DNA from: Ignavibacteria bacterium
Lineage (GTDB): Bacteria > Bacteroidota > Ignavibacteria > Ignavibacteriales > Melioribacteraceae
Direction of reading: 5' to 3'
DNA length: 14,386 bases
NCBI GenBank assembly: GCA_003233295.1
Contig: QILJ01000416.1
Coordinates: 1 to 14,386 of the forward strand
Shown here piece after piece: positions 241-14,386 of this stretch; the first letter of the stretch is position 1, and the number at the start of each line of letters is the position of its first letter. The notes under the pieces are model-generated. The model was not told the DNA's origin. It was given only the letters and a program-made list of their open reading frames with translations, and searched no databases. A program made the position numbers and the translations under genes.

Positions 241-1548
241 TTAATTAGTGAGAGTGATAATTTTGTTTTCCAGCTTAATCTTTCCGTTCAAACAACCGAG
301 CAACTCTCTCTTTTCAGTATCTTCCCCTTCTCGTAAAACATACTTTGCGTAAGTTCGTATATCGATATCAGCAATAACAACTTTTTCTTTTTTGCCAAGA
401 ATAAATTGTTGGAATTTTTTAAACTTTTCAACATCTTCTTTAATCTTTTTTCTAACACCACTCTCGTTTATATCAATCTTATCAATTAGTCCTTCGAATT
501 GTTTAATCAGATCTGTTTCATTTATATACCCACATTTACAATTCTTGTCTCTCGCCTTAGTACAACCATAATAAACGTGTCGCTTGGGTGGTCCGTTCTT
601 TTGTTTCTTAAACTTCTCGGTTGCCGAAATACCAGAACCACACAATCCGCATTTCATAATCTTAGTAAATGCGAATTCTATATTTTCTTTTCTAACTAGT
701 TGAGAGTTTTTGATTTGTTCTTGGGCCAAATCAAATAATTCTTTTGTGATAATTGGCTTATGTTTTCCTTGATACCAGTTGCCTGATTTTCTAGGATATT
801 CAAAAGTTCCATAATAAAATGTATTTTCTAATATTCGATATATATTACCAAGACTTAAATGTTTCTTTCCCGCTTCTGTTCTAAAATTCAGATCAAATTT
901 AAGCCAATGATACAATTTTCTACCTGACCACTTATCATATGCCACTTTCTCAAACATTTGTTTAATGACCGGTGCCCTATCTTCGTCGATTATTGTCTCG
1001 CATTTTCGATCCATTCTCTTTTCTTTAAAATATCCAGTCGGAGGGCATGTCGGCCACAATCCCATTTCACACCGTGTGCGTAATCCACGTTTTACATTTA
1101 TTCCCCTGTTGTCATTCTCAAGTTTCGCCTGAGAGCAAAGGATCATCAAAAGAAACTTTTCATTTGGTGAATTGCTGAAGGTTTGACCATAAGTACGAAT
1201 ACCCATGAGTTTCTTTTCATCCATAAGGTCAACGAGTGATCCTAAGTCTCCGGCATTTCTTGATAGCCTATCGGGGGCCCACGTGAGAATCCCATTGAAT
1301 CTCCCCTCTGATATATCATGAAGCAATTCTTTAAATACAGGTCTTTTGTTTGAATCCTTAGCTGATTTTGATTCTCTCCTAATATCAATAATTCTAAGGC
1401 CTTCTCTTTCTGCTATTTGCAACATCTCTTTTACTTGTGAATCAATTGAAAGCGCTTGTCGTTCATCTGATTCAGTACTTTTTCTGGCATACAAGCAATA
1501 CGTCATTTTTACTTCTGTATTGTCGGCATGCTTTGTCTGTTGTGACAT
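241..1548 (-). CDS. Large serine recombinase (site-specific integrase/resolvase)
   Basis: This 435-residue protein cuts and rejoins DNA through a serine-DNA intermediate to integrate or excise an element. Numbering from the ATG at 1548: the resolvase domain (about 16-145) has YARKS with nucleophile Ser24, and DRLSRN with Arg94 and Arg97. A recombinase domain follows (about 150-260, with PPTGY). A zinc ribbon follows with Cys300, Cys303 and Cys329 and further cysteines at 337 and 339, then a short charged tail. It is at the short end for the family. An upstream in-frame ATG at 1563 exists, but GGAG at 1557-1560 lies 8 bases before the ATG at 1548, so that start is preferred. No excisionase or directionality factor is recognisable nearby. 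It most likely mobilises the phage-like block to its right, though its attachment sites are not proven. Confidence 0.93.
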   Translation of the reverse strand: MSQQTKHADNTEVKMTYCLYARKSTESDERQALSIDSQVKEMLQIAEREGLRIIDIRRESKSAKDSNKRPVFKELLHDISEGRFNGILTWAPDRLSRNAGDLGSLVDLMDEKKLMGIRTYGQTFSNSPNEKFLLMILCSQAKLENDNRGINVKRGLRTRCEMGLWPTCPPTGYFKEKRMDRKCETIIDEDRAPVIKQMFEKVAYDKWSGRKLYHWLKFDLNFRTEAGKKHLSLGNIYRILENTFYYGTFEYPRKSGNWYQGKHKPIITKELFDLAQEQIKNSQLVRKENIEFAFTKIMKCGLCGSGISATEKFKKQKNGPPKRHVYYGCTKARDKNCKCGYINETDLIKQFEGLIDKIDINESGVRKKIKEDVEKFKKFQQFILGKKEKVVIADIDIRTYAKYVLREGEDTEKRELLGCLNGKIKLENKIITLTN

Positions 1549-1589
1549 ATTACTTACTCCCATATATATATGGTGTCAGAGAAAGGGTC

Positions 1590-2445: not shown

Positions 2446-3990
2446 CTAAAAAATCATATCCATAGTAACTCTAAAGTTTTCTAGTTCTGTACACATTCTT
2501 GTTCGTGGATTTTCTTCAACAATCAAGCCGCTTAAGCCATGACGACATCTTGGTGGATTTTCAGATAATCCTAATATTAGTGTTGAAAATGCATCAGAAA
2601 GATCATCATAAGCCTCAACCCCAAAATTTGTTAGTTGCCGAATGAGATCGCTACAACCCTTTTTAGGAAACAGTATGTGCCCAGAGTTAATTTTGAGTGC
2701 TGTTAGGGCTAAGCGAGTTCTTTTGTCAGTTTGTCCAGGACTAAATCCTTGTACGTTAAGTCCGGCTTTTTCCAAATATTGAATAACTCCTTTTTGCTGT
2801 CCAGCTTCTTCAACTATAAATTTTGGCCATGCTTTTTCGCATGTGTAATATTTATTTAAAGTATTACATCTCTCAACCAAAACCGGTGAAGTCAGCCGTT
2901 CATTTATTGGGTTTGGCAGAATATAAATATACATTTCTCTTTCAATCCAATACACATAGGCACTTACCATGGCTGTATAGTCCGCCGTGTTCTTCTGAGA
3001 AAAGGCTAAATCAATTCCGATACTAACTCCTGCAAACGACCTGTCTTGTAGTGGAAGATCGGAGTAATATTTAATCCACTTTTTATATATCACCTGATCA
3101 ACATCTGGAACAATATTAAGCAAGAACTCTCTTTGCCACTCAATTTCATTTCCGATTTCTTTCTTTTGTCTCTCAATACTTTCTCTATCAGGATACTTGC
3201 CGGGCCAAAGAGATATACCGTTCTCAACAAGTGGAAACTTCATAAACACTCCTGACCCCTGGCCACCTTCAACTTCGTCTTTGAGTCGCATAAGCAAAGA
3301 GTCTTCATGCAACAGATTTCCAATAACAATGAGTCGAGTAGTATTAACGTCTCCTGTTGCAACAACATCACCCTTAAGCCATTTATATGTCTTCTCTCTA
3401 CCTTCTTTAGTTCTTGTTGAATTTATATCCTCAACATCATCGCAGAGAATAAGGTCTGGTCTGTATTGCCTATGTCGCAATCCGCGGATACCCTCATCAA
3501 CAGAAGCAACTTTAATACGCGCGCCCATGTTTGAGAACACAAGTGAAGTCGAGGACCATTCTCCGTTTCTGCCTGTTTCTTGTATTTCTTTAAACGGACC
3601 AAGGTCTTGTCTTAGAAGATCATTGTTTTCAGCCTCCTCTCTGATATTTCTAAGCACCTGCTTTGATTGCCCCTGTGTTTTACAGAAAATCAAAATGTAT
3701 TTCTTTTTTTGGCGTCCAAGGATAGCCCAAAGTGGATATGCCGTTGTTGCGATTGTTGACTTGCCAGAATTTCTAAACGCAACAATGTACAGATTTTCTA
3801 TCTCATTTTTTTCAAGAGTATGTATGATCTTTTTTTGAAAATCTGCAGTCTGATATGTGACGTAATGAGCGAAATAGAAGTTGAAGAAATACAAAAAACT
3901 TTCTTTGGTTATGGCTTTTCTAACCTTTTGATCCTTTACCATTTGATCAAAAAGTTCTTCCGACATTGTTTTATTCGTTTGGTTTTTCAT
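2446..3990 (-). CDS. Phage terminase large subunit (packaging ATPase/nuclease)
   Basis: The 514-residue protein is the motor and DNA-cutting subunit that packages phage DNA into capsids. Its ATPase domain has a variant Walker A (FRNSGKST, about 72-79) and Walker B (DLILCDDVED, about 179-188). The C-terminal RNase H-like nuclease domain shows acidic positions at D327 (GIDLAF), E394/E395 (IVEEAG) and D462/D463 with D466 (YDDLSDAF). Length and motif order are those of an intact protein. The start overlaps the small-subunit gene by 20 bases. A weak AAGG lies 15-16 bases upstream, and a second ATG at 3966 is possible. Normally portal and capsid genes follow the large subunit; here the next gene is a convergent zinc-ribbon gene, so the morphogenesis module is absent from this window. 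Confidence 0.9.
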   Translation of the reverse strand: MKNQTNKTMSEELFDQMVKDQKVRKAITKESFLYFFNFYFAHYVTYQTADFQKKIIHTLEKNEIENLYIVAFRNSGKSTIATTAYPLWAILGRQKKKYILIFCKTQGQSKQVLRNIREEAENNDLLRQDLGPFKEIQETGRNGEWSSTSLVFSNMGARIKVASVDEGIRGLRHRQYRPDLILCDDVEDINSTRTKEGREKTYKWLKGDVVATGDVNTTRLIVIGNLLHEDSLLMRLKDEVEGGQGSGVFMKFPLVENGISLWPGKYPDRESIERQKKEIGNEIEWQREFLLNIVPDVDQVIYKKWIKYYSDLPLQDRSFAGVSIGIDLAFSQKNTADYTAMVSAYVYWIEREMYIYILPNPINERLTSPVLVERCNTLNKYYTCEKAWPKFIVEEAGQQKGVIQYLEKAGLNVQGFSPGQTDKRTRLALTALKINSGHILFPKKGCSDLIRQLTNFGVEAYDDLSDAFSTLILGLSENPPRCRHGLSGLIVEENPRTRMCTELENFRVTMDMIF

Positions 3991-4390
3991 TTTGTTTGTC
4001 AGTTACCTTAGGAATAATTGAAGCGAGATTAAAAGCGTTTCGCACGACTGCCTGTTGTTCAGGAGTCAATTCCTCATCATTGACATCGACCTTTGTTGTA
4101 ACTTTAACCCTATCTTTATATTTAGGATTCCTGCGGCTTAGTATAAAGCGAATGGCTGACCAGTTTTTCTCTTTAATAAGAGTCAGCAACTGTGACTCCG
4201 CAATGTCATTGACCAAAGCCTCGCCCTCGGCTAATGATTGGTCCATTTCGTTGCAAAATTTTTTGTCTTCCTTTCTCCAGCGATAAATACTTTGTCGAGA
4301 AACATTAATTCTTTCGCAGGCGACTAAAACTATTGGCATTTTTTTTAGTTCCTCAAGGAATGAATCTTTAACTTTGTTTTTCTTTGCCAT
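3971..4390 (-). CDS. Phage terminase small subunit-like HTH protein
   Basis: This 139-residue protein has an N-terminal helix-turn-helix of the form VACERINVSRQSIYRWR (about 23-39). A helical middle (LAEGEALVNDIAESQL...IRFILSRRNPKYKDR) is characteristic of HTH-type small terminase subunits, which recognise the packaging site and recruit the large subunit. Position supports this: it overlaps the large-subunit start by 20 bases and overlaps the end of the upstream methyltransferase gene by 23 bases, implying translational coupling within one minus-strand transcript. The ATG at 4390 is preferred over an upstream TTG at 4396. Without the adjacent large subunit, a generic phage HTH protein would be the fallback call. 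Confidence 0.8.
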   Translation of the reverse strand: MAKKNKVKDSFLEELKKMPIVLVACERINVSRQSIYRWRKEDKKFCNEMDQSLAEGEALVNDIAESQLLTLIKEKNWSAIRFILSRRNPKYKDRVKVTTKVDVNDEELTPEQQAVVRNAFNLASIIPKVTDKQNEKPNE

Positions 4391-5663
4391 GTTCAATTTT
4401 TGCTTTAATACCTGTTAATTTTTCGTACCTTTTAATTGCGAGGTCGCAAAAGATGGGTTCAAGCTCGACCGCATAAACTTTTCTCTTCAATTGTTCTCCC
4501 GCGATTAAAGTACTCCCTGACCCCGAAAAAGAATCAAGGATAATATCGCCCGGTTTTGTGCATCTCCGAATTGCTTTTTCGTGTAGTTTTGGGGGCTTAG
4601 AAGTAGCATGCTTGTATTCTTTATGTGAAAGACGTTTAACAAGCCAAATGTCCAATTCGTCCAGAGCTTCTTCAAGCAAATTATTTCCTGTAGTGATTTC
4701 CTTATTCAATACCTCGTTGAGGTTCTGAATATTTGGAGATATATATGGCCTACCTATGACCCCATAAGTACAGGGCTCATAGCACTTATTAAATGCCACA
4801 CCCGGGGTAGGGTTGTGTCCGTTCTTAATCCACAAACACACCCTTTTGTTTGTAATTCCTAATTCTCGGTAAAGCGTCTGTATCAACCAAAGATATGTCT
4901 GATCTGACCAGTAAAATACATGAGCGTTATTTTTGGTAACTGATAAAGCGGCTTCAATACTTTTCTTAAGAAATTCCTTGTATTCTTCATCAGTCCTATT
5001 ATCGTTCACATGTCCACCATAATTTTGTTTACCGCTTATGCCCGAGTTATAATCAACGCCGCCCTTGAGATTATAAACTGGGTCGCTATATATCACTGAG
5101 GCTCGTTCGTCCCCAAATAATCGTTTCAGGTTTTCCGATTCCGTGGAATCACCACAAAGTAATTTGTGTGGGCCAAGATGAATAAGGTCACCCAGTTTTG
5201 TTTTTGGTTTCTTGATTTTCGCTAACTCTGCTTCTTCGTCAAAATCTTCGTCTTTAACTTCTAGTTCTTCGCCCCAGATATTTGATAAATCTAATTGATC
5301 TAATCCTGAGTCGAGTAATAGGTCTAAGTCGAAGGATTTTAGTTTTTCGAAATCCCAGTCGCCACCGAGTGCGTTACTTGAGATAAGGTACTGTTCGGAT
5401 TCTTTTTTTGTAAGCTTGCGGTTTGGAATCCTGCAATCAATTAATTCATCGCCTCGACCAAGTATCTGTAAAACCTTTAGGCGCTGATGTCCGGCTAGTA
5501 TTTTATTATCCTTATCTACCGCAGGAATTTCCACTAAATTGTATTTCTTTAAACTTCTAGTTAAGTCTTTCAGTTGTTTCGGGCTAATAGTCCTGGGGTT
5601 TTTCTCGAAAGGCACCAAGTCATTAACTTGACGCTTTTCAGTTGTCCATTTTAGTTTAATCAT
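4368..5663 (-). CDS. ParB-like domain fused to DNA adenine/cytosine-N4 methyltransferase
   Basis: A 431-residue fusion. The N-terminal third (about 10-105) is a ParB/sulfiredoxin-type domain with LVPFEKNPR and GHQRLKVLQ (GHQR at 58-61). The C-terminal part (about 158-420) is an amino-methyltransferase with catalytic motif IV before the SAM motif, the beta-class order. It has SDPVYN at 193-198 and DSFSGSGST at 377-385, with the conserved KP..LHEKAI segment before it. Motif IV is normally DPPY; here the second proline is valine. This fusion is common in phages, next to terminase genes, where it modifies phage DNA against host restriction. It overlaps the small terminase gene and would be first in that transcript. 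No partner restriction enzyme is present. Target specificity cannot be read from the sequence. Confidence 0.9.
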   Translation of the reverse strand: MIKLKWTTEKRQVNDLVPFEKNPRTISPKQLKDLTRSLKKYNLVEIPAVDKDNKILAGHQRLKVLQILGRGDELIDCRIPNRKLTKKESEQYLISSNALGGDWDFEKLKSFDLDLLLDSGLDQLDLSNIWGEELEVKDEDFDEEAELAKIKKPKTKLGDLIHLGPHKLLCGDSTESENLKRLFGDERASVIYSDPVYNLKGGVDYNSGISGKQNYGGHVNDNRTDEEYKEFLKKSIEAALSVTKNNAHVFYWSDQTYLWLIQTLYRELGITNKRVCLWIKNGHNPTPGVAFNKCYEPCTYGVIGRPYISPNIQNLNEVLNKEITTGNNLLEEALDELDIWLVKRLSHKEYKHATSKPPKLHEKAIRRCTKPGDIILDSFSGSGSTLIAGEQLKRKVYAVELEPIFCDLAIKRYEKLTGIKAKIEHGKEKQS

Positions 5664-5677
5664 GTTGTTTATTTGTT

Positions 5678-5823
5678 AGTGATTACTAATTATTCACTCT
5701 AACCGACCCAACAAAAAACACCCACTCTGTTCAAGCAAGTAAAAAATACTAACCTGAACAAAATGGGCGCGACCGAGGCAATGCCTCTCTGAGTAAAACT
5801 CTTCTAGAAGTAAAAATTACTTC
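5678..5823. promoter_or_regulatory. Cluster of palindromes upstream of the methyltransferase-terminase run
   Basis: The 214-base gap between two minus-strand genes holds no ORF but five dyads. AGTGA faces TCACT at 5678-5698. CCCA-N3-TGTTCA faces TGAACA-N3-TGGG at 5721-5767. GAGGCA-a-TGCCTC lies at 5775-5787, CTTCTAGAAG at 5801-5810, and GAAGTAA-AAA-TTACTTC at 5807-5823. The last two overlap. No run of T follows any of them, so operators or a processing/packaging site fit better than simple terminators. The binding proteins are unknown; the small terminase subunit and the LexA-like protein are candidates. Confidence 0.4.
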
Positions 5824-5877
5824 AATACGTGACGACCTATGTGTCTTAAGTTGTTAAATGAACTTACCCTTATATTA

Positions 5878-6285
5878 CTACTTTGATTTTTTAGAGTCAA
5901 GATATTTTTGTGCCTCATCGCTTAGAATAAGCTTGGCGCCTTTTCCTGGCGGGAGTAAAATTACCACTTTTTTGTTTTCCGATTCTGCTTTTTTAACTTT
6001 CTTTTTCATTTCGGGCGGAAGATGGATTTTAAACTCTGATTTTATGCTATTCATGTCGCGTTTCATCTCCTCCATAATAGCCGAGAAAGAACCATATGAT
6101 TTTCTCGCATGACGACTTTTTTCTACGGTTCGCAAAACAGAGTTTGGTTTTCTTGGTTTTGACACCCGAATAACGGCCGCCATTAACACAATGGGGTAGA
6201 TTTTATCCTTGTACTCTTCGCTAAGACTGGTTGCATTGATAAAATGATAGTCAGCGTAAAAAGTAATTTTATCTTCTTTGTCCAT
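5878..6285 (-). CDS. Hypothetical basic protein, 135 aa
   Basis: I do not recognise this family. The protein is lysine-rich and soluble-looking, with no signal peptide or membrane helix. A basic middle (KPRKPNSVLRTVEKSRHARKS) is followed by a charged helical part (MEEMKRDMNSIKSEF) and a C-terminal PPGKGAKLILSDEAQKYLDSKK segment. An ATG two codons upstream (6291) is possible, but the -10 box TACAAT at 6292-6297 places the transcription start at about 6285, so a leaderless message starting at this ATG is more likely. It is divergent from the LexA-like gene, sharing a 109-base control region, and so may belong to the same regulatory circuit. Confidence 0.6.
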   Translation of the reverse strand: MDKEDKITFYADYHFINATSLSEEYKDKIYPIVLMAAVIRVSKPRKPNSVLRTVEKSRHARKSYGSFSAIMEEMKRDMNSIKSEFKIHLPPEMKKKVKKAESENKKVVILLPPGKGAKLILSDEAQKYLDSKKSK

Positions 6286-6291
6286 GTTCAT

Positions 6292-6297
6292 ATTGTA
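6292..6297 (-). promoter_or_regulatory. -10 box (TACAAT) of the divergent hypothetical gene
   Basis: On the minus strand TACAAT ends 6 bases before the ATG at 6285, predicting a leaderless transcript. The -35 region (TGTAGT, 17 bases upstream) is weak. Confidence 0.35.
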
Positions 6298-6356
6298 TCA
6301 CTGCATGCGATAAAACTACACTATGGGGGGCTTTAAGGACGCTGTATTTAAAAAGC

Positions 6357-6385
6357 TTGCATTATTGTATAAAATAATTTATACT
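6357..6385 (+). promoter_or_regulatory. Promoter of the LexA-like operon (leaderless)
   Basis: TTGCAT (6357-6362) and TATACT (6380-6385) are separated by exactly 17 bases, close to the sigma-70 consensus. The predicted transcription start, 6-7 bases after the -10, falls within about three bases of the ATG at 6395. This rejects the longer in-frame ATG at 6323, which lies upstream of the promoter, and implies a leaderless message. Confidence 0.7.
6367..6384. promoter_or_regulatory. Palindromic operator inside the LexA-like promoter
   Basis: GTATAAA-ATAA-TTTATAC is a 7+4+7 dyad that fills the spacer and the -10 box. Its position would let a bound dimer block polymerase. Autoregulation by the LexA-like protein encoded just downstream is the natural reading. 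It differs from the E. coli CTGT...ACAG and Bacillus GAAC...GTTC SOS boxes. Confidence 0.6.
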
Positions 6386-6394
6386 ATTTATATC

Positions 6395-7012
6395 ATGACA
6401 AATAACCTTAGCGACAAAGACAAAAAAGCTTTTGCCCTTATCCGCAATAAGATTATCCATTATGGTGAAAGCCCCACCCTTCGTGAAATTAACGAAGTAA
6501 CGGGCGGAAGATCTCCAAGGTCAGCAAGTCTTGTAATTAATCGACTTATTGAATCGGGTCTTATAAAGAAAAAAGGGAGAAACTTAGTACTTATGAATAC
6601 TTATAAAGAAAATTCAGTAAGTACGGTAGATGTTCCCCTTGTCGGTTCTGTCGCCTGCGGTACACCAATCTTTGCAGAAGAAAACATAGAAACCCGCATT
6701 CCTGTTTCGACGAGAATGATTCAAAAGGGGTCTAAGTATTTTTTTCTCCGAGCGCTTGGTGATTCAATGGATGCAGATGGAATCAATAGTGGTGACTTGC
6801 TTCTTATAAGACAGCAAAACACAGCGGGCAATGGAGATAAGGTGGTTGCCCTTATCAATGATGAAGCAACTGTAAAAATTTTTGAGAGGACTCGTGATGC
6901 TATTATTCTTCGACCGAAATCAAAGAATAAAATTCACAAGCCTATAATATTAACAGATAATTGTATGATCCAAGGGGTGGTTGTTGCGGCACTCCCAGCA
7001 GATCTATATTAA
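6395..7012 (+). CDS. lexA: LexA-type self-cleaving transcriptional repressor
   Basis: A 205-residue protein, almost the length of E. coli LexA. The N-terminal winged helix (about 5-68) contains GESPTLREINEVTGGRSPRS. The C-terminal S24 peptidase domain has the cleavage region VGSVACGTPIFAEENIE, catalytic Ser124 (GDSMDADG) and Lys161 (EATVKIFER), at LexA-like spacing. The scissile bond would be Cys88-Gly89, as in UmuD, rather than the usual Ala-Gly of LexA. On DNA damage, RecA-stimulated self-cleavage would relieve repression. Starting at ATG 6395 agrees with the promoter; the upstream extension is rejected. It heads a tight same-strand run of five genes (gaps 5, 6, 14 and 20 bases) and probably controls it and the divergent gene. 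It could be the host's LexA or an element-borne copy; context favours the latter. Confidence 0.88.
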   Translation: MTNNLSDKDKKAFALIRNKIIHYGESPTLREINEVTGGRSPRSASLVINRLIESGLIKKKGRNLVLMNTYKENSVSTVDVPLVGSVACGTPIFAEENIETRIPVSTRMIQKGSKYFFLRALGDSMDADGINSGDLLLIRQQNTAGNGDKVVALINDEATVKIFERTRDAIILRPKSKNKIHKPIILTDNCMIQGVVVAALPADLY

Positions 7013-7017
7013 AAAAT

Positions 7018-7263
7018 ATGGCAAATTACCATGTAACAAACCCCAAAGGTTCTGGTGTTTGGAAAGTACTAAAAGCTGGGGCAGATCGTGCTTCCGCTAT
7101 AGCTAGTACCCAAAAAGAAGCAGAAAAGATTGCAAAAACATTATTAGCTAATTCTGGCGGTGGAGAAGTGAGGATTCATAAGCCTAACGGTGGACCTATT
7201 CGCGATAGTGATACTGTTGCACCCGGCAATGACCCATTCCCACCCAGAGATAAAAAATTTTAA
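7018..7263 (+). CDS. DUF2188-family small protein
   Basis: An 81-residue protein starting at the ATG five bases after the repressor stop; an upstream TTG would overlap the repressor gene. It has the DUF2188 layout: an aromatic beta start (YHVTNPKGSGVWKV), ASTQKEAEKIAKTLL helix, GGGEVRIHKPNGGPIRDSDT and the terminal NDPFPPRDKKF, which is the hallmark of the family. No enzymatic motif is known for DUF2188. Members are small, soluble and widely spread, often in accessory DNA. Its place between a repressor and a Cas2-like gene suggests an accessory or regulatory part of the operon, but its function is unknown. Confidence 0.8.
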   Translation: MANYHVTNPKGSGVWKVLKAGADRASAIASTQKEAEKIAKTLLANSGGGEVRIHKPNGGPIRDSDTVAPGNDPFPPRDKKF

Positions 7264-7269
7264 AAACTT

Positions 7270-7551
7270 ATGTCCCGAATATTTTTAATCGCTTACGACC
7301 TAAACAAAGGAGAAACATCATCAGAATATAAACGCCTTATTGATCAAATTAAAAAGCTTGGTTCATGGGCAAAACCACTAGAATCTACTTGGTTTGTTAT
7401 TTCTGAAAGTTCAGCTTCTGAAATTATAGATTACCTCAAGAAATTCATTGATTCCAATGATGAATTATTGGTAATGGATGTTACAGACGATGATTGGGCA
7501 ACCATGGGAATTAATAAAGAGGTGACTGATTGGATGAAAGAAAACATTTAA
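7270..7551 (+). CDS. Cas2/SinR-like ferredoxin-fold protein, not in a CRISPR locus
   Basis: A 93-residue protein of the stand-alone Cas2-like (SinR-named) family. It opens with FLIAYDLNKG, carrying the Asp of the first beta strand that binds metal in Cas2 nucleases. It continues with an alpha helix (YKRLIDQIKKLG), WAKPLESTWFVIS, a second helix, and ELLVMDVTDDDWAT. True Cas2 pairs with Cas1 in spacer acquisition, but no cas1, effector or repeat-spacer array occurs in the window, so a role in CRISPR adaptation is unlikely here. VapD/Cas2-fold proteins can be RNases or structural dimers. In this operon it may act on nucleic acid together with the HEPN-type protein downstream, which is inference from context. 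Confidence 0.8.
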   Translation: MSRIFLIAYDLNKGETSSEYKRLIDQIKKLGSWAKPLESTWFVISESSASEIIDYLKKFIDSNDELLVMDVTDDDWATMGINKEVTDWMKENI

Positions 7552-7565
7552 TCTGGAAAAGAAAA

Positions 7566-8603
7566 ATGAATATTTACGAATTACATAAAAAAATAAACCT
7601 TGCACTTAATGAAGAACTTAGGGCGTATGAAGCACGGGGTCGTCGTAGTGGTGATTTGGGTAGTATGAATATTGGATTACAAAGCATGCCAAATAATGGC
7701 TGGACTAACCAAGGAAGTATTCCACGGTTATTATTTGAGGAAAGTAACCCAAATGTTATTTCTTCCCCCAATGCTACGATACTTTTAAAGTTATATTCAT
7801 CTTTAGATGATAATGACAAGAGAAGTTTTGATAATTATCTTATTGGGTCTTTAAATAAGACCTCCACATATGTGAGTATTGCTTATTTAGTTTTCTTTAT
7901 CTTGTATCGAATTGGCAAGACTGCTGATGCTCTAAAAATGGCACGGAGATCGCTGGCAGGAGATTCGGTGCATGGTTACGGCAATTTACTCGGAACACTT
8001 TCGATGATAGTCTCTCGAGAATATTTAGAGATTGATCCTAAAGATTATGAAAGTATTAAATTAATACTTCAAAATGATACTGAGGACGATTTTAGATTAC
8101 AAGAAAAGATAAATCTTGCATTACTTAAGCATCTTGAAAGGGACCTAGATGACGTAAATCCTGAAATCAATACTGATCGAGACAAAGTAATTGAAATTTG
8201 GAATACTGAGTTTAAGAATCCAGAAGTGCCAACATTGATTGGAGAGATAGAAGACTATTTTCGTGAAGGAGATTTTACGGAAACAAAGTTTGCGACTTCA
8301 ATAGGTAGAATCCGAGTTCTTCTTGCCGAAGTGTCTAAACGTTTGGCGCTAAGAGTTGCTCTTGAAAAATCAGACAAGTCTATATCAGAAAATTCTAACG
8401 ATCATAGTTTTTCCCAATACTTAAAGGATAAAGAAATAATTTCCACTAACGAATGGAGTATTTTGCGATCTCTATATAATTTGGCATCCAACGAGGGCGC
8501 CCATAGCTCAGTTTCTAACCGTGAGTACGCTCGACTTATTAAGAATATGTCGTATGAGCTTATTCTGCTTTTTTTGAGTAGATATAAATTAGCTGATGCT
8601 TAA
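7566..8603 (+). CDS. Abortive-infection C-terminal-domain-like protein
   Basis: A 345-residue soluble protein, start chosen at ATG 7566 with the weak purine tract GGAAAAG before it; an upstream ATG at 7530 would overlap the Cas2-like gene. The N-terminal half (about 1-200) is mainly helical and unrecognised, with a basic RRSGD patch near 27-30. The C-terminal part (about 240-340) contains RSLYNLASNEGAH followed by SNREYARLIKNMSYELILLFL. A helix ending in (N/E)EG(A/S)H followed by a long hydrophobic helix is characteristic of the Abi C-terminal domain seen in anti-phage proteins, and R301...H313 is reminiscent of distant HEPN folds. A phage-defence effector or sensor role is plausible, but the resemblance is read by eye and should be treated as moderate. 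Confidence 0.6.
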   Translation: MNIYELHKKINLALNEELRAYEARGRRSGDLGSMNIGLQSMPNNGWTNQGSIPRLLFEESNPNVISSPNATILLKLYSSLDDNDKRSFDNYLIGSLNKTSTYVSIAYLVFFILYRIGKTADALKMARRSLAGDSVHGYGNLLGTLSMIVSREYLEIDPKDYESIKLILQNDTEDDFRLQEKINLALLKHLERDLDDVNPEINTDRDKVIEIWNTEFKNPEVPTLIGEIEDYFREGDFTETKFATSIGRIRVLLAEVSKRLALRVALEKSDKSISENSNDHSFSQYLKDKEIISTNEWSILRSLYNLASNEGAHSSVSNREYARLIKNMSYELILLFLSRYKLADA

Positions 8604-8623
8604 AAAAGTTGAAAATAGATAAT

Positions 8624-9739
8624 ATGCCTAACAATACAAAAATTAAAGACAATAGAATGCAGTGGGTATTGGAGCTTGAGAAATTAGAACAAGCCAAAGA
8701 AAGCCCTGTTTACTTTACTGAATATGAAATATGTTCCGAGGTTAGAATACCAGGAGTTTTTGAATATGGAAATAAAATGATGCAATGCTCGTTATTTCAA
8801 GAGGCTGATGATAATAATCTTTATACCTACATTTTAAGAATTAAGCATGTAGAGGAAGCTTTTGAGTACGATGAGAAAAACTACTCAAAAGACGGATATT
8901 ATTTTAAAGAAGGTTTAATTGGAGAAATAATTGCGTTATTTTCTTTTCACTTCCAAGCACGTTTTTACTTGAAAGCAATCATTACAGGTGAGATGACACC
9001 TCACAGTATAAAAATACGTATAGAAAAGAAGTTTCGATATAAAAAAATAAATGATGATTCTACATGCTTGAACAATGAGATGTTTTCAAACAATGGAAGA
9101 AATTGGAGTAAAGATAACGGTCTGGTTGATTTTCTTGATTCAATAAGAACAATCGACCAAAAGTACCACCAAGGTCTTATCAGATCATTTCATTGGTATT
9201 CAGAGGCAGTAAAAGAAATAGGGGTTGATCATGAATTGTTTTTCATTAAAATGGTTTCGGCGGTGGAAGCACTATTAGAACTCTCTAAAGCAGATCCCGA
9301 TAGTTTAGAAGAAAAACTTATTGGATTTAATGATAAAGAGCTTTTTACTCCTGATGAATGGGTTCAGATTGAAAAATGGTTAGAGAACAGAAAGATTCGC
9401 AAAAGGTTTGCAGATTTTTTTGAGAAATATTCGGAAGGCTTTTCTGGAGATGTTCCCGAAAAAGCCTCCCACTGCTATATAGCAAAAGACGGAGTGACAA
9501 CATATGTTAAGCGGATTTATGATGCACGTTCTGCATATTTACATGCTGGAAAGCCGATGTTTTTAAGCATGGACTTGAGGGATGATGATGCAAAAAAGTG
9601 GGATTTAGATCCTTCTATGGGTATGAGTGCAGACAGAAAGAAAATCTCTGAGAAAGAGAAATTACCACGCACGCGGTGGTTTGAGAGAATAGTAAATTTT
9701 TCTTTAAAAAGTTTTGTTACAGACAACTTACCTTCATAA
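8624..9739 (+). CDS. Apea-like HEPN-domain protein (putative RNase)
   Basis: A 371-residue protein, started at ATG 8624; a TTG at 8609 is the alternative. Residues 1-180 are an unrecognised alpha/beta region. From about 185 it matches the Apea-like HEPN pattern: a paired-helix core (HWYSEAVKEIGVDHELFFIKMVSAVEALLEL) and, after a variable insert, VKRIYDARSAYLHAGKPM, where R302 and H307 form the R-x4-H active-site motif of HEPN RNases. The motif appears intact, so metal-independent RNA cleavage is the expected activity, as in many toxin and abortive-infection systems. It is the last gene of the repressor-led operon, followed directly by a terminator hairpin. No membrane segment is seen. Confidence 0.7.
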   Translation: MPNNTKIKDNRMQWVLELEKLEQAKESPVYFTEYEICSEVRIPGVFEYGNKMMQCSLFQEADDNNLYTYILRIKHVEEAFEYDEKNYSKDGYYFKEGLIGEIIALFSFHFQARFYLKAIITGEMTPHSIKIRIEKKFRYKKINDDSTCLNNEMFSNNGRNWSKDNGLVDFLDSIRTIDQKYHQGLIRSFHWYSEAVKEIGVDHELFFIKMVSAVEALLELSKADPDSLEEKLIGFNDKELFTPDEWVQIEKWLENRKIRKRFADFFEKYSEGFSGDVPEKASHCYIAKDGVTTYVKRIYDARSAYLHAGKPMFLSMDLRDDDAKKWDLDPSMGMSADRKKISEKEKLPRTRWFERIVNFSLKSFVTDNLPS

Positions 9740-9740
9740 T

Positions 9741-9764
9741 AAAGTTACATTGGTGTGTAACTTT
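9741..9764 (+). terminator. Hairpin closing the LexA-like operon
   Basis: AAAGTTACA (9741-9749) pairs perfectly with TGTAACTTT (9756-9764) around a six-base loop, one base after the HEPN gene stop. The short A and T ends could serve as a weak intrinsic terminator in either direction. Confidence 0.6.
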
Positions 9765-9779
9765 AAGTATTGATTATGT

Positions 9780-9839
9780 GTCACTTTTGTCACTTTTTGA
9801 AGCGCACGAGGAACCTTCGATTTATATCTTGAAAAAGTG
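9780..9839. repeat. Tandem 9-mer with distal inverted copy
   Basis: GTCACTTTT occurs twice in tandem at 9780-9797. CACTTTTT (9791-9798) is complementary to AAAAAGTG (9832-9839). It lies between the operon terminator and the GC-rich repeat array. A protein-binding site or weak stem is possible; no gene is seen in it. Confidence 0.35.
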
Positions 9840-9866
9840 TAAAATAACCTTACGGGGTAAGGAACC

Positions 9867-9897
9867 CCACGGTTCCAGCACGAGGTTGCCCGCAAAA
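9867..9897 (+). repeat. Dispersed repeat A, copy 1
   Basis: This 31-base segment (CCACGGTTCCAGCAC...) matches 13975-14005 at 28 of 31 positions in the same orientation. Both copies run into a CCGCAAAA arm that can pair with a downstream TTTTGCG. They bracket the whole cassette array. Confidence 0.7.
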
Positions 9898-9941
9898 CAA
9901 AGAGTAAAATGCGAAGCATTTTAGGAGTATGCTTTTGCGAG

Positions 9942-9955
9942 AGAGGGAGGGATTC
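9942..9955 (-). repeat. tRNA-Ser 3'-end-like 14-mer, copy 1 (inverted)
   Basis: On the minus strand this reads GAATCCCTCCCTCT preceded by GGTTC, that is the T-loop, T-stem and acceptor 3' strand of a tRNA-Ser. No tRNA body is attached. Three plus-strand copies follow downstream at 10256, 12720 and 14222. Confidence 0.7.
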
Positions 9956-10086
9956 GAACCGAGCCGCCGCGAAGCCCGATTTTGAGGAACGAAAAATCGG
10001 AGGCGGCGAGTGGGGGCCGAGGGAGTGAGATTTTTATGAGTCCGAAAGACGAAATAAAAATCCACGAGAGTGGCCGAATCCCCTCT

Positions 10087-10152
10087 CCGCAGATTTGAAC
10101 GCAGTGAAAAACTGTGGAGAGGAGTCCCGCTAAAAGCGGGACGCGGGGATTC
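10087..10152 (+). repeat. 66-bp direct repeat B, copy 1
   Basis: Identical to 12530-12595 except for three loop bases (AAA here, TTT there) in the embedded GTCCCGCT...AGCGGGAC hairpin. It starts inside a tRNA-3'-like stretch (GAATCCCCTCTCCGC at 10076-10090). Its CCGCAG arm can pair with CTGTGG downstream. Confidence 0.85.
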
Positions 10153-10255
10153 GAACGGCGGAGCATGTCGCCGCAGGCGACGGCGAGCCGTGTCCCGCGG
10201 CGCTTATGAGTTTGGAGCCCGCAAGGCGAACAAACGAATTAGCGACCGTCAGGAC

Positions 10256-10275
10256 GAATCCCTCCCTCTCCGCCA
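10256..10275 (+). repeat. tRNA-Ser 3'-end-like fragment with CCA, copy 2
   Basis: GAATCCCTCCCTCTCCGCCA reads as T-loop end, T-stem 3' strand, acceptor 3' strand, discriminator G and CCA. Upstream bases do not form the rest of a cloverleaf, so it is a fragment and not a tRNA gene. Such ends are classical integration targets, so this may be an attachment-site footprint at the left of the XRE cassette. Confidence 0.75.
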
Positions 10276-10305
10276 ATTTGTGCTTTTTGCGAAATTGTAA
10301 GAGGT

Positions 10306-10394
10306 TGCCTCGGCTGATTTCCCGCCCGCAGGAGGGGTCTGGGGAGGAATGCGGGCGGGATTCGGAACCCTTTTGAAAAAAAATTGGACGGCTA
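10306..10394 (+). repeat. Left arm of 88-89 bp inverted repeat around the XRE cassette
   Basis: This segment is the reverse complement of 12333-12420 with one substitution and one single-base indel. It contains its own stem, CCCGCCCGCA (10321-10330) with TGCGGGCGGG (10350-10359), a purine-rich loop, and a run of eight A near the inner end. The arm ends 70 bases before the XRE start codon. Confidence 0.9.
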
Positions 10395-10412
10395 CAAAAT
10401 CTATAAATATAT

Positions 10413-10433
10413 AATATACCAAACTGGTATATT
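10413..10433. promoter_or_regulatory. Operator of the XRE regulator
   Basis: AATATACCA-AAC-TGGTATATT is a perfect 9+3+9 dyad 31 bases before the XRE start. A possible -10 (TATAGT, 10445-10450) follows 11 bases later. A dimer bound here would cover the promoter, consistent with autorepression by the small XRE protein. Confidence 0.65.
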
Positions 10434-10464
10434 CCACAATAGGTTATAGTATGGTAATATAATT

Positions 10465-10683
10465 ATGTCGAAACTATATTCACAAAAAAACAAGAATTTG
10501 CTTAAAAAGCTTCGTTCTGCTCGCATAGAGGCAGGATTGACGCAAATTCAAGCAAGTAAGAAATTAAAAAAGCCTCAATCATATTTGTCGAAAATTGAAC
10601 GAGGCGAGCGCAAGATCGAAGCGATTGAATTAGCAGATTTTGCGAATATTTATAATAAAGATATTAACTACTTTATAAAATAA
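10465..10683 (+). CDS. XRE-family helix-turn-helix regulator
   Basis: A 72-residue single-domain Cro/CI-type DNA-binding protein. The helix-turn-helix spans about 24-50 (LTQIQASKKLKKPQSYLSKIERGER), followed by the usual IEAIELADFANIY helix. It is the first gene of a three-gene run, with a 3-base gap to the next gene. The perfect palindrome upstream suggests it represses its own operon. Regulator-first organisation is typical of toxin-antitoxin and defence cassettes. Confidence 0.9.
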   Translation: MSKLYSQKNKNLLKKLRSARIEAGLTQIQASKKLKKPQSYLSKIERGERKIEAIELADFANIYNKDINYFIK

Positions 10684-10686
10684 TTT

Positions 10687-11505
10687 ATGGAAAACGAACA
10701 AAACAAAAAAGTCCAGCAAGCAGTTCCTGCAAAAAATAGATGGTTCGCGGGTTATCTTATTGCTGGTCTGATTTGGACATTCGCCCAAACTTTCAAAAAG
10801 AACACGATAGACGAATTTATCATTTTGGTTATTGCGATAACCGCAGGTGTTCTTTATCATCGTCTTAAGTCAAAAATCAAAGTTAAAAACGAAACAGGAA
10901 AAATTGCGATAACTTTCATCATTCTTTATATTGTTTCTGCATTGTTGATTGGATTTTTGACTTCTTTGGCAAACAACTGGGAATCTGTCGCGGTGAGAAG
11001 TCCACTTGGAACAGAAATTGCAACTAGAGATCGGAATTCACTGACACAATTAAATCAAAACCAAAAAACATACCTAGTAAATTTTCAAACTCGGTGGGAT
11101 GCGGCTCAAAACAATGTTGACGATAAAACTGAATCGAGAGTGGGCTATACGAATAATATATCCGCTTATAAAATCCTACGAACATTAAACGATGAACGAC
11201 AAGACAAAGTCGTTCAGTATTTTAATCAAGCGAGTCCTATTTTAGTTAAGTATTCTCAAAATTTAGTAGATGCTTTTTCGCAGTTAGTAAAAACTGATGA
11301 TGATGCAAAAGTTGTTTACGATGATATTTTCACTGCGAAAATAAATTATTACCAAGCAATTATTGATAACCGATCAGACTCAGAAATTTCGGCGAAAGCT
11401 TCAATCGTTAATAACGCTGTTGATAGGGTTAGTGCGGTAGTGCAAGCGGGCGCACAAGCTCAAGCAAATTATCAAAAGATATATAACGAAGTTTTTGGAA
11501 GCTAA
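10687..11505 (+). CDS. Three-TM membrane protein with helical C-terminal domain
   Basis: A 272-residue protein I do not recognise. Hydrophobic helices are at about 19-36, 43-58 and 72-95, followed by a soluble, mostly helical domain of about 170 residues (98-272) rich in Asn, Gln, Asp and Ala, with coiled-coil character near the end (VVQAGAQAQANYQKIYNEV). There is no signal peptide or catalytic motif. The charge pattern leaves the location of the long domain uncertain. It starts 3 bases after the XRE stop and ends 1 base before the next ATG, so the three are co-transcribed. A membrane effector or sensor in a defence-like cassette is a reasonable but unproven reading. Confidence 0.75.
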   Translation: MENEQNKKVQQAVPAKNRWFAGYLIAGLIWTFAQTFKKNTIDEFIILVIAITAGVLYHRLKSKIKVKNETGKIAITFIILYIVSALLIGFLTSLANNWESVAVRSPLGTEIATRDRNSLTQLNQNQKTYLVNFQTRWDAAQNNVDDKTESRVGYTNNISAYKILRTLNDERQDKVVQYFNQASPILVKYSQNLVDAFSQLVKTDDDAKVVYDDIFTAKINYYQAIIDNRSDSEISAKASIVNNAVDRVSAVVQAGAQAQANYQKIYNEVFGS

Positions 11506-11506
11506 A

Positions 11507-12331
11507 ATGGCAGGAGACAAAAAAAATTTACTCGAAGAAAGTAGCACTCCAAAAATTGTTAGGGGTGCTTTGCAAGTAATCGGTGGAGCCGTTCCTTTTG
11601 CTGGCGGGCTACTTTCTGCGGCGGCAGGTGCTTGGTCTGAAAATGAACAAGAGCGAGTAAATAAATTTTTTCGTCATTGGATAAAAATGCTTGAGGACGA
11701 AATAAAAGAAAAAGAAAGAACCATTCTCGAAATAATGGCGCGATTAGATATTCACGACGAAAAAATTGCTAAAAGGTTAGAGAGCAAAGAATATCAATCG
11801 CTCCTTAAAAAAACATTTCGAGAATGGTCTGGTGCAGAAAGTGAGGAGAAAAGAACTTATATCAGAAATATACTTACAAACGCCGCTGCTTCAAATATGA
11901 CGAGCGACGAAGTCGTTCGACTTTTTATTGATTGGCTCAAAACATATTCCGAACTTCATTTCAAAGTTATTGCAGTTATTTATAAACACGGAACAAGCGG
12001 AGTTTCTCGCGGTGGCGTTTGGGCTGATTTAGGAAAAGCAGAGGTTACAGAAAATTCTGCGGACGCAGATTTGTTCAAACTGCTTTTCCGAGATTTAAGC
12101 ACTGGCGGAGTAATTAGGCAACATCGAGAAGTTGATTATTATGGAAATTTTGTTGCAAAAACACCACAACACCGACCGAAAGGATCGGGACCAAAACCCG
12201 TAACCTCTGCGTTTGATGATGAATATTCATACGAACTTACCGAACTTGGTAAACAATTCGTTCATTATGCAATGACTGATTTGCCGCTTAAAATTGAATA
12301 TAAACATCACGATGAGGCAAATCAAAAATAA
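11507..12331 (+). CDS. Protein with N-terminal amphipathic segment and C-terminal winged-helix-like domain
   Basis: A 274-residue protein started at ATG 11507, with GGAAG five bases before it; a TTG at 11495 would overlap the previous gene. Residues 18-44 (ALQVIGGAVPFAGGLLSAAAGAW) form a glycine/alanine-rich hydrophobic segment that could insert in or lie on a membrane. Residues 45-145 are a charged helical bundle (KMLEDEIKEKERTILEIMARL). From about 150 (HFKVIAVIYKHG) to 255 (YELTELGKQFVHYA) the pattern resembles a winged helix. I have the impression of a recurrent family of unknown function but cannot name it. Its stop lies one base before the right inverted repeat, so the cassette is tightly packed. 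Confidence 0.7.
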   Translation: MAGDKKNLLEESSTPKIVRGALQVIGGAVPFAGGLLSAAAGAWSENEQERVNKFFRHWIKMLEDEIKEKERTILEIMARLDIHDEKIAKRLESKEYQSLLKKTFREWSGAESEEKRTYIRNILTNAAASNMTSDEVVRLFIDWLKTYSELHFKVIAVIYKHGTSGVSRGGVWADLGKAEVTENSADADLFKLLFRDLSTGGVIRQHREVDYYGNFVAKTPQHRPKGSGPKPVTSAFDDEYSYELTELGKQFVHYAMTDLPLKIEYKHHDEANQK

Positions 12332-12332
12332 A

Positions 12333-12420
12333 TAGCCGTCCATTTTTTTTCAAAAGGGTTCCGAATCCCGCCCGCATTCCTCCCCAGACCCCTCCTGCGA
12401 GCGGGAAATCAGCCGAGGCA
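12333..12420 (-). repeat. Right arm of 88-89 bp inverted repeat
   Basis: Reverse complement of 10306-10394 with two differences. Its internal stem is weakened by one change (TGCGAGCGGG). The eight-T run at 12343-12350, reached soon after the last gene, may also help end transcription. No target-site duplication is obvious outside the arms. Confidence 0.9.
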
Positions 12421-12757: not shown

Positions 12758-12769
12758 AATTTGATATTT

Positions 12770-13906
12770 ATGAAAGTATTAATAATATTATCTTTAATAA
12801 TACTACTGTTCATACCCCTAGTCATGAGTGCAGAAAATAGTAACAATAACAACGTTTTATACTTAAACTCAGATACATCAATTGTGTTACCTTATTTTGA
12901 TACCTCGTCAGTTGCGAACAGTAATATTGATGCAATAATTCTATCTTTGTATGTTTTAGATAAAACTCCTGAAGTATCATCACGAGTACAGATAACCATT
13001 AATCCCGTTGATCTGAATACTAATAATGTAGACGACGGACTATCAGCATTCGTAAATGTAAGTAAAGATAGTTATATTGATTTTAAACTACCCAAGGAGT
13101 TATTTGAACAAACAGTACATAAACCAAAAAGATTTCTTGTCCATCTTGTTAACAAAGATCAAAAGATTGTGTTGGCTGGTCCAGATATGGTTGGTACAAC
13201 ACAGGATCCGAAGTTAATAGTAGTACATACTAAACTTAATGAAAATGAGATCCCAGACCAACCAAAAATAATTGAAAATAATTACTATACTATTGAAAAT
13301 GCTCAACTTCACTTTGGCGTAGGTGATAATGTGGGAAATAATAAAATCGGAACAATTAACACTTCTGCCTTAAACGATATTCCCCTTTGGCTTAAATGGT
13401 TGGTTGCTATAGCTACAATATTCGGAGCTGGTTGGGGAGTATATTCATATTTACATACAAAAGATAGCAACATACAACAATACCATTCTGGACAAGGAGA
13501 TAATATTATAGGAGATAAAATTATTAACATTCAAAAATATTCTAGTACCCAATTTATAAAATCTTGGCCAGAGTATTTAGGTGGTGTTGATGAATTGAAC
13601 TTGGATAATATTGGGATACTAAAAGCATATTTTCCACGAGATGAATACAGTATTACTTTAATATCTAATATTATCCCAATAGGAATGCCTGATAGAAATG
13701 AATCTGAAAAATTTAAATCTACTGGAAATATAGAAATAAACGAAACTAATCAAAGTGATAAAATCTTATTTGATTTAAAAAATCCAGTTCATGCATTTGA
13801 ATTTCAAAACAGAATTTTTAATGTAAAGCTATTAAGTATTACTGAAAAACAAATTAAAGATGTACAGAAAGCAATAGAATATAAATTTGGAATCTCAGAA
13901 AAATAA
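12770..13906 (+). CDS. Exported receptor-like protein with central TM and GxGDN-type motifs
   Basis: A 378-residue protein started at the ATG 12770; a TTG nine bases upstream is less likely. Residues 1-21 are a signal peptide (MKVLIILSLIILLFIPLVMSA) without a lipobox cysteine. An extracytoplasmic beta-rich domain (about 28-160) includes a SNIDAIILSLYVL strand pattern like jellyroll surface domains. One membrane helix lies at about 206-228 (PLWLKWLVAIATIFGAGWG). The C-terminal 150 residues should be cytoplasmic. Two related motifs flank the helix: HFGVGDNVGNNKI (181-193) and HSGQGDNIIGDKI (239-251). GxGDNxxGDK-like motifs recur in proteins of large multidomain defence or signalling types, but their role is unclear. 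It stands alone between repeats. A surface sensor passing a signal inward is inferred only from topology. Confidence 0.75.
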   Translation: MKVLIILSLIILLFIPLVMSAENSNNNNVLYLNSDTSIVLPYFDTSSVANSNIDAIILSLYVLDKTPEVSSRVQITINPVDLNTNNVDDGLSAFVNVSKDSYIDFKLPKELFEQTVHKPKRFLVHLVNKDQKIVLAGPDMVGTTQDPKLIVVHTKLNENEIPDQPKIIENNYYTIENAQLHFGVGDNVGNNKIGTINTSALNDIPLWLKWLVAIATIFGAGWGVYSYLHTKDSNIQQYHSGQGDNIIGDKIINIQKYSSTQFIKSWPEYLGGVDELNLDNIGILKAYFPRDEYSITLISNIIPIGMPDRNESEKFKSTGNIEINETNQSDKILFDLKNPVHAFEFQNRIFNVKLLSITEKQIKDVQKAIEYKFGISEK

Positions 13907-14333: not shown

Positions 14334-14386
14334 ATGCCGGAAAAGGAAATTATCGTAAACAATTTCAAAATTCGCTATTCCGAAAG
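14334..14386 (+). CDS. Start of a gene, possibly an alpha/beta hydrolase (truncated by window)
   Basis: Seventeen codons are visible: MPEKEIIVNNFKIRYSE. The pattern of a short polar start, then V(N)NFKIRY, resembles the first beta strands of alpha/beta-hydrolase proteins, which continue with a G.G.P..FLHG strand and oxyanion turn. That part lies outside the window, so the identification is tentative. The upstream extended -10 and leader hairpin support a real start here; there is no clear Shine-Dalgarno site. Confidence 0.5.
   Translation, partial: MPEKEIIVNNFKIRYSE

Follow-up and report, generated by a model that had tools for sequence, protein, structure and literature searches.

A LexA-headed cargo operon in a phage lineage that probably infects Patescibacteria

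In phage lambda, the repressor gene cI stands first in an operon and the exclusion genes rexA and rexB follow behind it. A comparable arrangement, with a repressor gene first and cargo genes behind, was found in contig QILJ01000416.1, the whole of which (14386 bases) was analysed and is referred to here as the window. Its operon encodes a LexA-type repressor, a small DUF2188 protein, a lone Cas2-like protein, a protein of 345 amino acids (aa) that we call P4 (not to be confused with the satellite phage of that name) and a HEPN protein of 371 aa. It differs from cI-rexA-rexB in that the repressor is LexA and not CI, no protein family was seen in common, and the operon is probably self-repressed.

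Another close parallel is found in the P2-like phages and P4 satellites, whose defence hotspots were outlined by Rousset et al. 2022 (PMC9122126); one of these hotspots lies between the cI repressor gene and the integrase gene. In both cases, conserved phage genes adjoin a small locus whose defence genes vary. The locus presented here differs in that some of its members are LexA-headed, with the cargo on the same strand, and in that the host is probably a member of the Patescibacteria. As prophage defence hotspots are already known, the LexA-headed slot is a variation on them; what is new is its presence in a lineage of phages whose hosts are probably Patescibacteria, together with two uncharacterised HEPN-type families. 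On balance, we favour the reading that the operon belongs to a temperate phage, probably one infecting Patescibacteria (candidate phyla radiation, CPR), and that the cargo genes behind its repressor gene are independent, exchangeable modules.

The LexA-headed operon and its phage neighbourhood

The five plus-strand open reading frames (ORFs) span positions 6395-9739 in the order given above, with gaps of 5, 6, 14 and 20 bases (the first taken from the DUF2188 ATG at 7018), which bears out the original prediction of five same-strand genes lying 5-20 bases apart. The first product scored 140.5 bits against TIGR00498 (cut-off 110.95), and in an alignment with eight other LexA-type proteins its Cys-Gly site and its Ser and Lys columns are kept; we take the former to be the self-cleavage site and the latter to be the dyad of LexA. 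These features support the view, already part of the original prediction, that the operon is headed by a repressor of the self-cleaving type. The operon diverges from a phage block in the left part of the window, which lies entirely on the minus strand and encodes a serine integrase, both terminase subunits and a ParB-like methylase (Table 1). No use had been made of this phage context in the original prediction.

A LexA-type gene diverging from the ParB-methylase block was also found in three relatives (L086, L097 and L121). Behind the repressor gene, L086 carries two AAA ATPases, both resembling AriA, Old and GajA models and the larger with an OLD-like TOPRIM match above the cut-off; L121 carries a protein of 310 aa that gave no match and another that is like DUF4145 but scored just below the cut-off, DUF4145 being listed as a HEPN family (PMC3710099); the L097 contig stops behind LexA. 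The slot was surveyed in 16 loci from 14 contigs, namely these three and 13 others with sequence upstream of the ParB-methylase gene, and the slot genes of 11 loci (all but L087, L097, L108, L112 and L140) were scanned. Above-cut-off matches to restriction-modification, OLD/AAA, GmrSD, HNH or SocA/Panacea families were obtained in 7 of the 11 (L086, L091, L096, L102, L105, L109 and L120; in L105, several plus-strand genes intervene before the match), and none in L085, L088, L098 and L121. L124 also has a LexA gene ahead of a type I restriction gene; the two lie behind the integrase, however, and may belong to host flanking sequence. Variable defence genes were thus found adjoining conserved phage genes, as in the prophage hotspots, and because the relatives carry differing defence genes near the same spot, the locus looks more like an exchangeable cargo slot than a fixed four-gene system.

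The lineage was sampled with a terminase alignment of three members; the best 80 of 157 related stretches, together with L084, L001 and the window, gave 83 sequences. ParB-methylase was present in 60 of these, integrase in 26, a LexA-type gene in 6 (the window included; one match, in L125, is weak), P4 in 3 (the window, L001 and L140, the latter two being one contig) and Cas2-like in 2 (the window and L103), and HEPN and DUF2188 occurred in the window only. These counts are not independent, since L091/L098 and L105/L108 are pieces of one contig each and L106/L107 are near-duplicates. A small gene at the position of the 137-aa gene between operon and phage block is also present in L085, L097 and L121; the similarity was judged by eye only, and the p137 profile gave no match in these loci.

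The "clean promoter" of the original prediction was not confirmed as such: the sigma70-like site before the operon is a weak one, and one of 28 such sites in positions 5700-10800, where shuffling gave a mean of 15.2. The palindrome on its -10 element is the sole zero-mismatch occurrence of GTATAAA-N4-TTTATAC within the window. When the 103 bases upstream were shuffled 2000 times, 34 of the shuffles contained a palindrome of identical geometry and 198 contained any palindrome with arms of at least 7 bases and a spacer of 2-8; the palindrome is therefore suggestive, not strong, as a putative LexA operator. The supposed terminator fared no better, as the hairpin at the operon end has no U run and a consensus terminator scan was empty on the plus strand at 9740-9765, the sole plus-strand terminator thereabouts being at 9807-9819.

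Table 1. Features of the LexA-headed operon and of its neighbourhood in the window.
Feature	Position	Strand	Basis or remark
Serine integrase	241..1563	-	phrog_95
Terminase large subunit	2446..3990	-	phrog_38
Terminase small subunit	3971..4396	-	
ParB-like / DNA methyltransferase	4368..5663	-	phrog_498
137-aa protein between operon and phage block	5878..6291	-	
Sigma70-like promoter of operon	6347..6375	+	weak, 9/12 consensus match
Candidate LexA operator GTATAAA-N4-TTTATAC (7+7 palindrome)	6367..6384	+	overlaps -10 of the 6347-6375 promoter
LexA-type repressor (S24)	6395..7012	+	TIGR00498, PF00717, PF01726, PDB LexA matches, alignment
DUF2188 small protein	7018..7263	+	Pfam DUF2188; PADLOC candidate PDC-S16
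Lone Cas2-like protein	7270..7551	+	phrog_1090; D10 invariant 20/20
P4, 345 aa	7566..8603	+	N-terminal helical domain and C-terminal HEPN-like domain, S308-x4-H313
HEPN protein, 371 aa	8624..9739	+	R302-x4-H307, beta-rich N-terminal part
Hairpin at operon end	9740..9765	+	11 pairs, without U run

Some further features lie downstream of the operon. The stretch 10669-10688 matches 18 of the 20 bases of the operator stretch 6363-6382 (such a match was found in 0 of 200 shuffled windows) and overlies the junction where a helix-turn-helix (HTH) ORF ends and the next gene (10687) starts. An inverted repeat of 79 bases (10306-10384 / 12342-12420, 99% complementary), with 66-base direct repeats just outside it, brackets a cassette (10465-12331) made up of an HTH gene and two genes of no recognised kind. 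A 381-aa protein (12761-13903) gave a short, weak match to GapS6a/GapS6b; this assignment was dropped, as the match covers about 20-30 residues and lies far under the cut-offs.

Cargo families and their distribution

By their own sequences, the 371-aa protein and P4 have no usable family match, and neither gave anything convincing against PDB sequences. All 57 aligned homologues (the window's own included) keep the residues R302 and H307 of the 371-aa protein, so the originally predicted R-x4-H motif is real; the predicted structure model of this protein reached a pLDDT (predicted local distance difference test) of 92.4. In its beta-rich N-terminal part and its R-x4-H motif it is like the ApeA-type HEPN proteins outlined by Anantharaman et al. 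2013 (PMC3710099), and 9 of the 57 members match HEPN_Apea (PF18739) at E up to 0.1 (best 3e-4), but for the protein of the window neither Pfam nor PADLOC gave a match at E up to 1. The protein search yielded 103 homologues including the window's, of which P0160, P0161, P0163, P0165, P0167, P0171, P0173 and P0174 are fused to a gamma-glutamylcyclotransferase domain (PF06094). None was found among 379 genomes of the phylum of genome G001, which we infer to be Patescibacteria (this search had no positive-control genome); viral scans gave no contig besides the window, and plasmid and phage searches were also empty.

In P4, S308-x4-H313 is kept in 45 of 45 family members, and any R-x4-6-H after residue 200 occurs in 4 of the 45, the canonical HEPN motif not being conserved in the family. 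There is some support for regarding its C-terminal half as a degenerate HEPN-like fold in which a Ser replaces the motif Arg. It had originally been placed among Abi-type proteins, and although membership of Abi_C (PF14355) found no support at the sequence level (0 of 25 family members scanned match at E up to 0.1), that hunch of its kind came close, given the support for a HEPN-like fold. A search for Abi_C and HEPN_Apea in 192 genomes each found them in 2 and 3 genomes, too few to serve as comparison sets. No similarity between P4 and the 371-aa protein was seen by profile. From the HEPN toxins of the HepT/MNT type, P4 differs by its Ser and by an extra N-terminal domain, and no MNT family match was obtained among the neighbouring window proteins scanned.

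The protein search gave 77 P4 proteins including the window's. Plasmids, phages and a first viral scan gave no match, scans of viral contigs with the P4 alignment led to L001 and L002, and 2 of the 379 genomes hold P4, namely G001 itself and one with a weak match. Outside the window, P4 stands near restriction genes or, in G001, after LexA and a pair of metallo-beta-lactamase (MBL) and transmembrane (TM) genes. This pair recurs behind Cas2-like, DUF2188 or LexA (L103 8893-10633, L053 7153-9031 and L073 9427-11174): it follows LexA in G001 (P4 being next), DUF2188 beside LexA in G157, and Cas2-like beside XRE-ImmA in L103, where the MBL protein matches PADLOC PDC-M48B. P0070, P0073, P0075 and P0077, which include a GGDEF protein and longer, membrane-like proteins, carry the N-terminal half of P4 but not its HEPN part.

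The DUF2188 assignment was confirmed (68.4 bits, cut-off 22; searches were run on 7021-7260, the first Met being left out), and PDB sequences gave no match. The family was located at 24 places in 22 of the 379 genomes, one place yielding no ORF and one only a fragment. It lies beside a LexA-type gene at 2 of the 24 places and beside an XRE and ImmA/M78 pair at 3 (the XRE of L057 by eye); these five repressor genes are upstream of and divergent from DUF2188, with a small ORF between in two of the five. In L052 (7250-8164) and L057 (7195-8232), the gene after DUF2188, beside XRE-ImmA, encodes a protein of about 305 aa; the two proteins are similar by eye, and the one scanned gave no family match. 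At four places (L062, L064, L066 and L067), DUF2188 overlaps or lies at most 5 bases from a zeta-toxin-like kinase gene; of three such calls scanned, one was above and two below the Pfam cut-off, and L066 was called by eye. DUF2188 and this kinase may form an undescribed toxin-antitoxin pair. SocA/Panacea genes lie near DUF2188 at 4 of the 24 places (two by Pfam, two by eye), and one phage record labels a DUF2188-containing protein as an antitoxin.

The assignment of the Cas2-like protein stood by its phrog_1090 match (4.3e-24), and its score against PF09827 (23.2 bits) was just under the cut-off of 23.8. No convincing match was found among PDB sequences (one Cas2 at E 0.29 was among the hits), no array-like repeat family of at least 18 bases, as expected of a CRISPR array, was detected in the window, and no Cas1 match was obtained among those window proteins that were scanned, the contig being only 14.4 kb long. 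In its invariant Asp ending the first strand and its occurrence as a lone gene it is like the Cas2-related VapD nucleases (as outlined by Gilep et al. 2025, PMC11980593); D10 is kept in 20 of 20 aligned proteins and S39 in at least 90%, and these were equated with the VapD catalytic Asp and Ser by eye, the alignment holding no VapD. Cas2-like was found in 7 of the 379 genomes (5 strong), with ImmA-type genes close by in 4 of the 5 strong loci. In annotated phages it occurs in the early region or, in Enterococcus phage phiFL1A, beside CI and integrase, and it is also found in P2-type phages. Among 27 viral contigs (26 and L103), a recognised S24, XRE or ImmA gene lies within 2.5 kb of Cas2-like in only 2, and repressor-type genes are denser far from it (0.084 vs 0.023 per kb), as counted with repressor profiles that rest on a small number of sequences and will overlook many such genes. 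Cas2-like is thus linked to repressors among the genomes of G001's phylum and in certain annotated phages, but not in general. Genome G235 is the only one with both DUF2188 and Cas2-like, on one contig and about 6 kb apart, and its Cas2-like gene adjoins integrase, terminase and ParB-methylase genes related to the window's.

Proposed mechanism and alternative explanations

Under the reading that we favour, LexA would use the palindrome on the -10 element to repress the promoter from which it is itself expressed. Damage to the host DNA, caused by an incoming phage, a rival or another stress, would lead to RecA filaments and to LexA self-cleavage at Cys-Gly, resulting in a burst of cargo expression. 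The cargo would act as a set of independent modules, in which the HEPN RNase, by its canonical R302/H307, would cut RNA and halt growth, P4 would combine a sensor-like N-terminal domain with a degenerate HEPN, and DUF2188 and the VapD/Cas2-type nuclease candidate would be small proteins of kinds that in other places can be found close to repressors or toxins. The probable benefit would be that competing phages are excluded or that a doomed cell is shut down. Of the originally proposed damage-triggered release of an RNase, release upon damage is thus retained as reasonable and the families do appear defence- or toxin-like; the single system is not retained.

Several observations weigh against this reading. 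Most relatives in the lineage are without a recognised LexA, no LexA operon with HEPN was found except that of the window, and P4 (L140/L001) and Cas2-like (L103) sit elsewhere on their contigs, outside the slot. The window LexA is only 24-32% identical to the eight LexA-type proteins compared, and therefore the repressor itself may have been swapped; those of L086, L097 and L121 and two genomic ones share 36-43% mutual identity, so that the window LexA appears to be of the same position and kind as the LexA proteins of the three relatives and not closely related to them. The palindrome is weak evidence by the shuffle counts, a search upstream of four genomic LexA genes (L073, L053, L061 and L064) gave no GTATAAA-type site, and upstream of LexA in L086, L097 and L121 there is no perfect palindrome with 7-base arms. 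Finally, the host was assigned through relatives, and the named P4 and HEPN homologues come from Patescibacteria and several other groups.

The leading alternative, a lesser possibility in our view, is an exclusion operon expressed during lysogeny as in lambda, with low, steady amounts of cargo that act post-translationally and a minor role for the SOS response. The repressor-first order would suit it, and DUF2188 (in the two Streptococcus phages examined) or Cas2-like (in the Enterococcus phage) stands beside CI on the repressor strand. Yet if the -10 palindrome is the operator, the repressor would lower cargo expression and not raise it, and the scarcity of recognised repressors near Cas2-like in the viral contigs also speaks against it.

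A dedicated, LexA-gated defence system of four components, with DUF2188, Cas2-like and P4 regulating or sensing and HEPN as the effector, appears improbable. The close spacing within a single operon favours it, as do the place of P4 after LexA in G001 (with two genes between) and the repressors beside DUF2188 at 5 of 24 places. Its genes were, however, not conserved neighbours in the loci that could be examined, which in part is the outcome that the original prediction had named as refuting it. The length of the longest contig per 90% cluster was compared for P4 (76, one of the 77 entries being without a length), HEPN (103) and Cas2-like (14, the window's included), of which 37, 65 and 7 entries, respectively, are at least 5 kb; identical values, which compare lengths and not contigs, occurred only at 14386, the window itself. 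One near-coincidence, between a P4 homologue (P0012, 15429 bases) and a HEPN homologue (P0107, 15428 bases), may represent one contig in two versions, and it raised our estimate for a single system slightly and lowered that for independent modules by as little. HEPN was found in none of the 379 genomes (searched without a positive control), and outside the window the lineage has Cas2-like in L103 only, P4 in L001/L140 only and HEPN and DUF2188 in none. A fixed four-gene system was therefore not upheld by the contig comparison, made by length only, or by the genome and viral searches; because of the co-occurrence and 379-genome results, the combination is, as far as visible, a mosaic. No description of it was found in the titles and abstract beginnings of open-licence literature, in which DUF2188 itself is named in 7 papers. 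Very improbable is a third alternative, in which P4 and HEPN are toxins of addiction modules that share DUF2188 as their antitoxin and stabilise either the phage or a prophage of plasmid-like kind. The zeta-toxin-like and Panacea neighbours of DUF2188 and the antitoxin label speak for it, but these neighbours belong to families other than P4 and HEPN, and DUF2188 was not found to pair repeatedly with P4 or with HEPN.

Significance for Patescibacteria and their phages

A broader proposal, rather doubtful at present, would extend the repressor-headed cargo operon to a general class of damage-gated operons in mobile elements of Patescibacteria. In these, a protease-controlled repressor (LexA, or XRE with an ImmA/IrrE-type M78 protease) would stand next to DUF2188 and/or Cas2-like and be followed by an exchangeable effector (MBL + TM, P4, HEPN or others); P4 would represent a HEPN family not described before, having Ser for the motif Arg and a sensor domain that is shared with a diguanylate cyclase and with membrane proteins, and a LexA-controlled Cas2-like protein would latch the switch. 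VapD-type proteins are described as raising the SOS response in Escherichia coli (PMC11980593), and such a latch is conceivable, speculatively, if the Cas2-like protein acts alike. The rarity of repressors near Cas2-like in viral contigs counts against so general a class.

To our knowledge, little is known about how Patescibacteria or their phages fight other phages. Most Patescibacteria are described as lacking CRISPR (PMC12911398), and the terms "LexA" and "repressor" are absent from the main text of a paper on Patescibacteria phages. The results presented here correct the view of this gene set as one system. The repressor-headed slot may be a place in which to seek new defence genes, as the P2 hotspots have been for E. 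coli, and the two uncharacterised HEPN-type families become candidates for testing.

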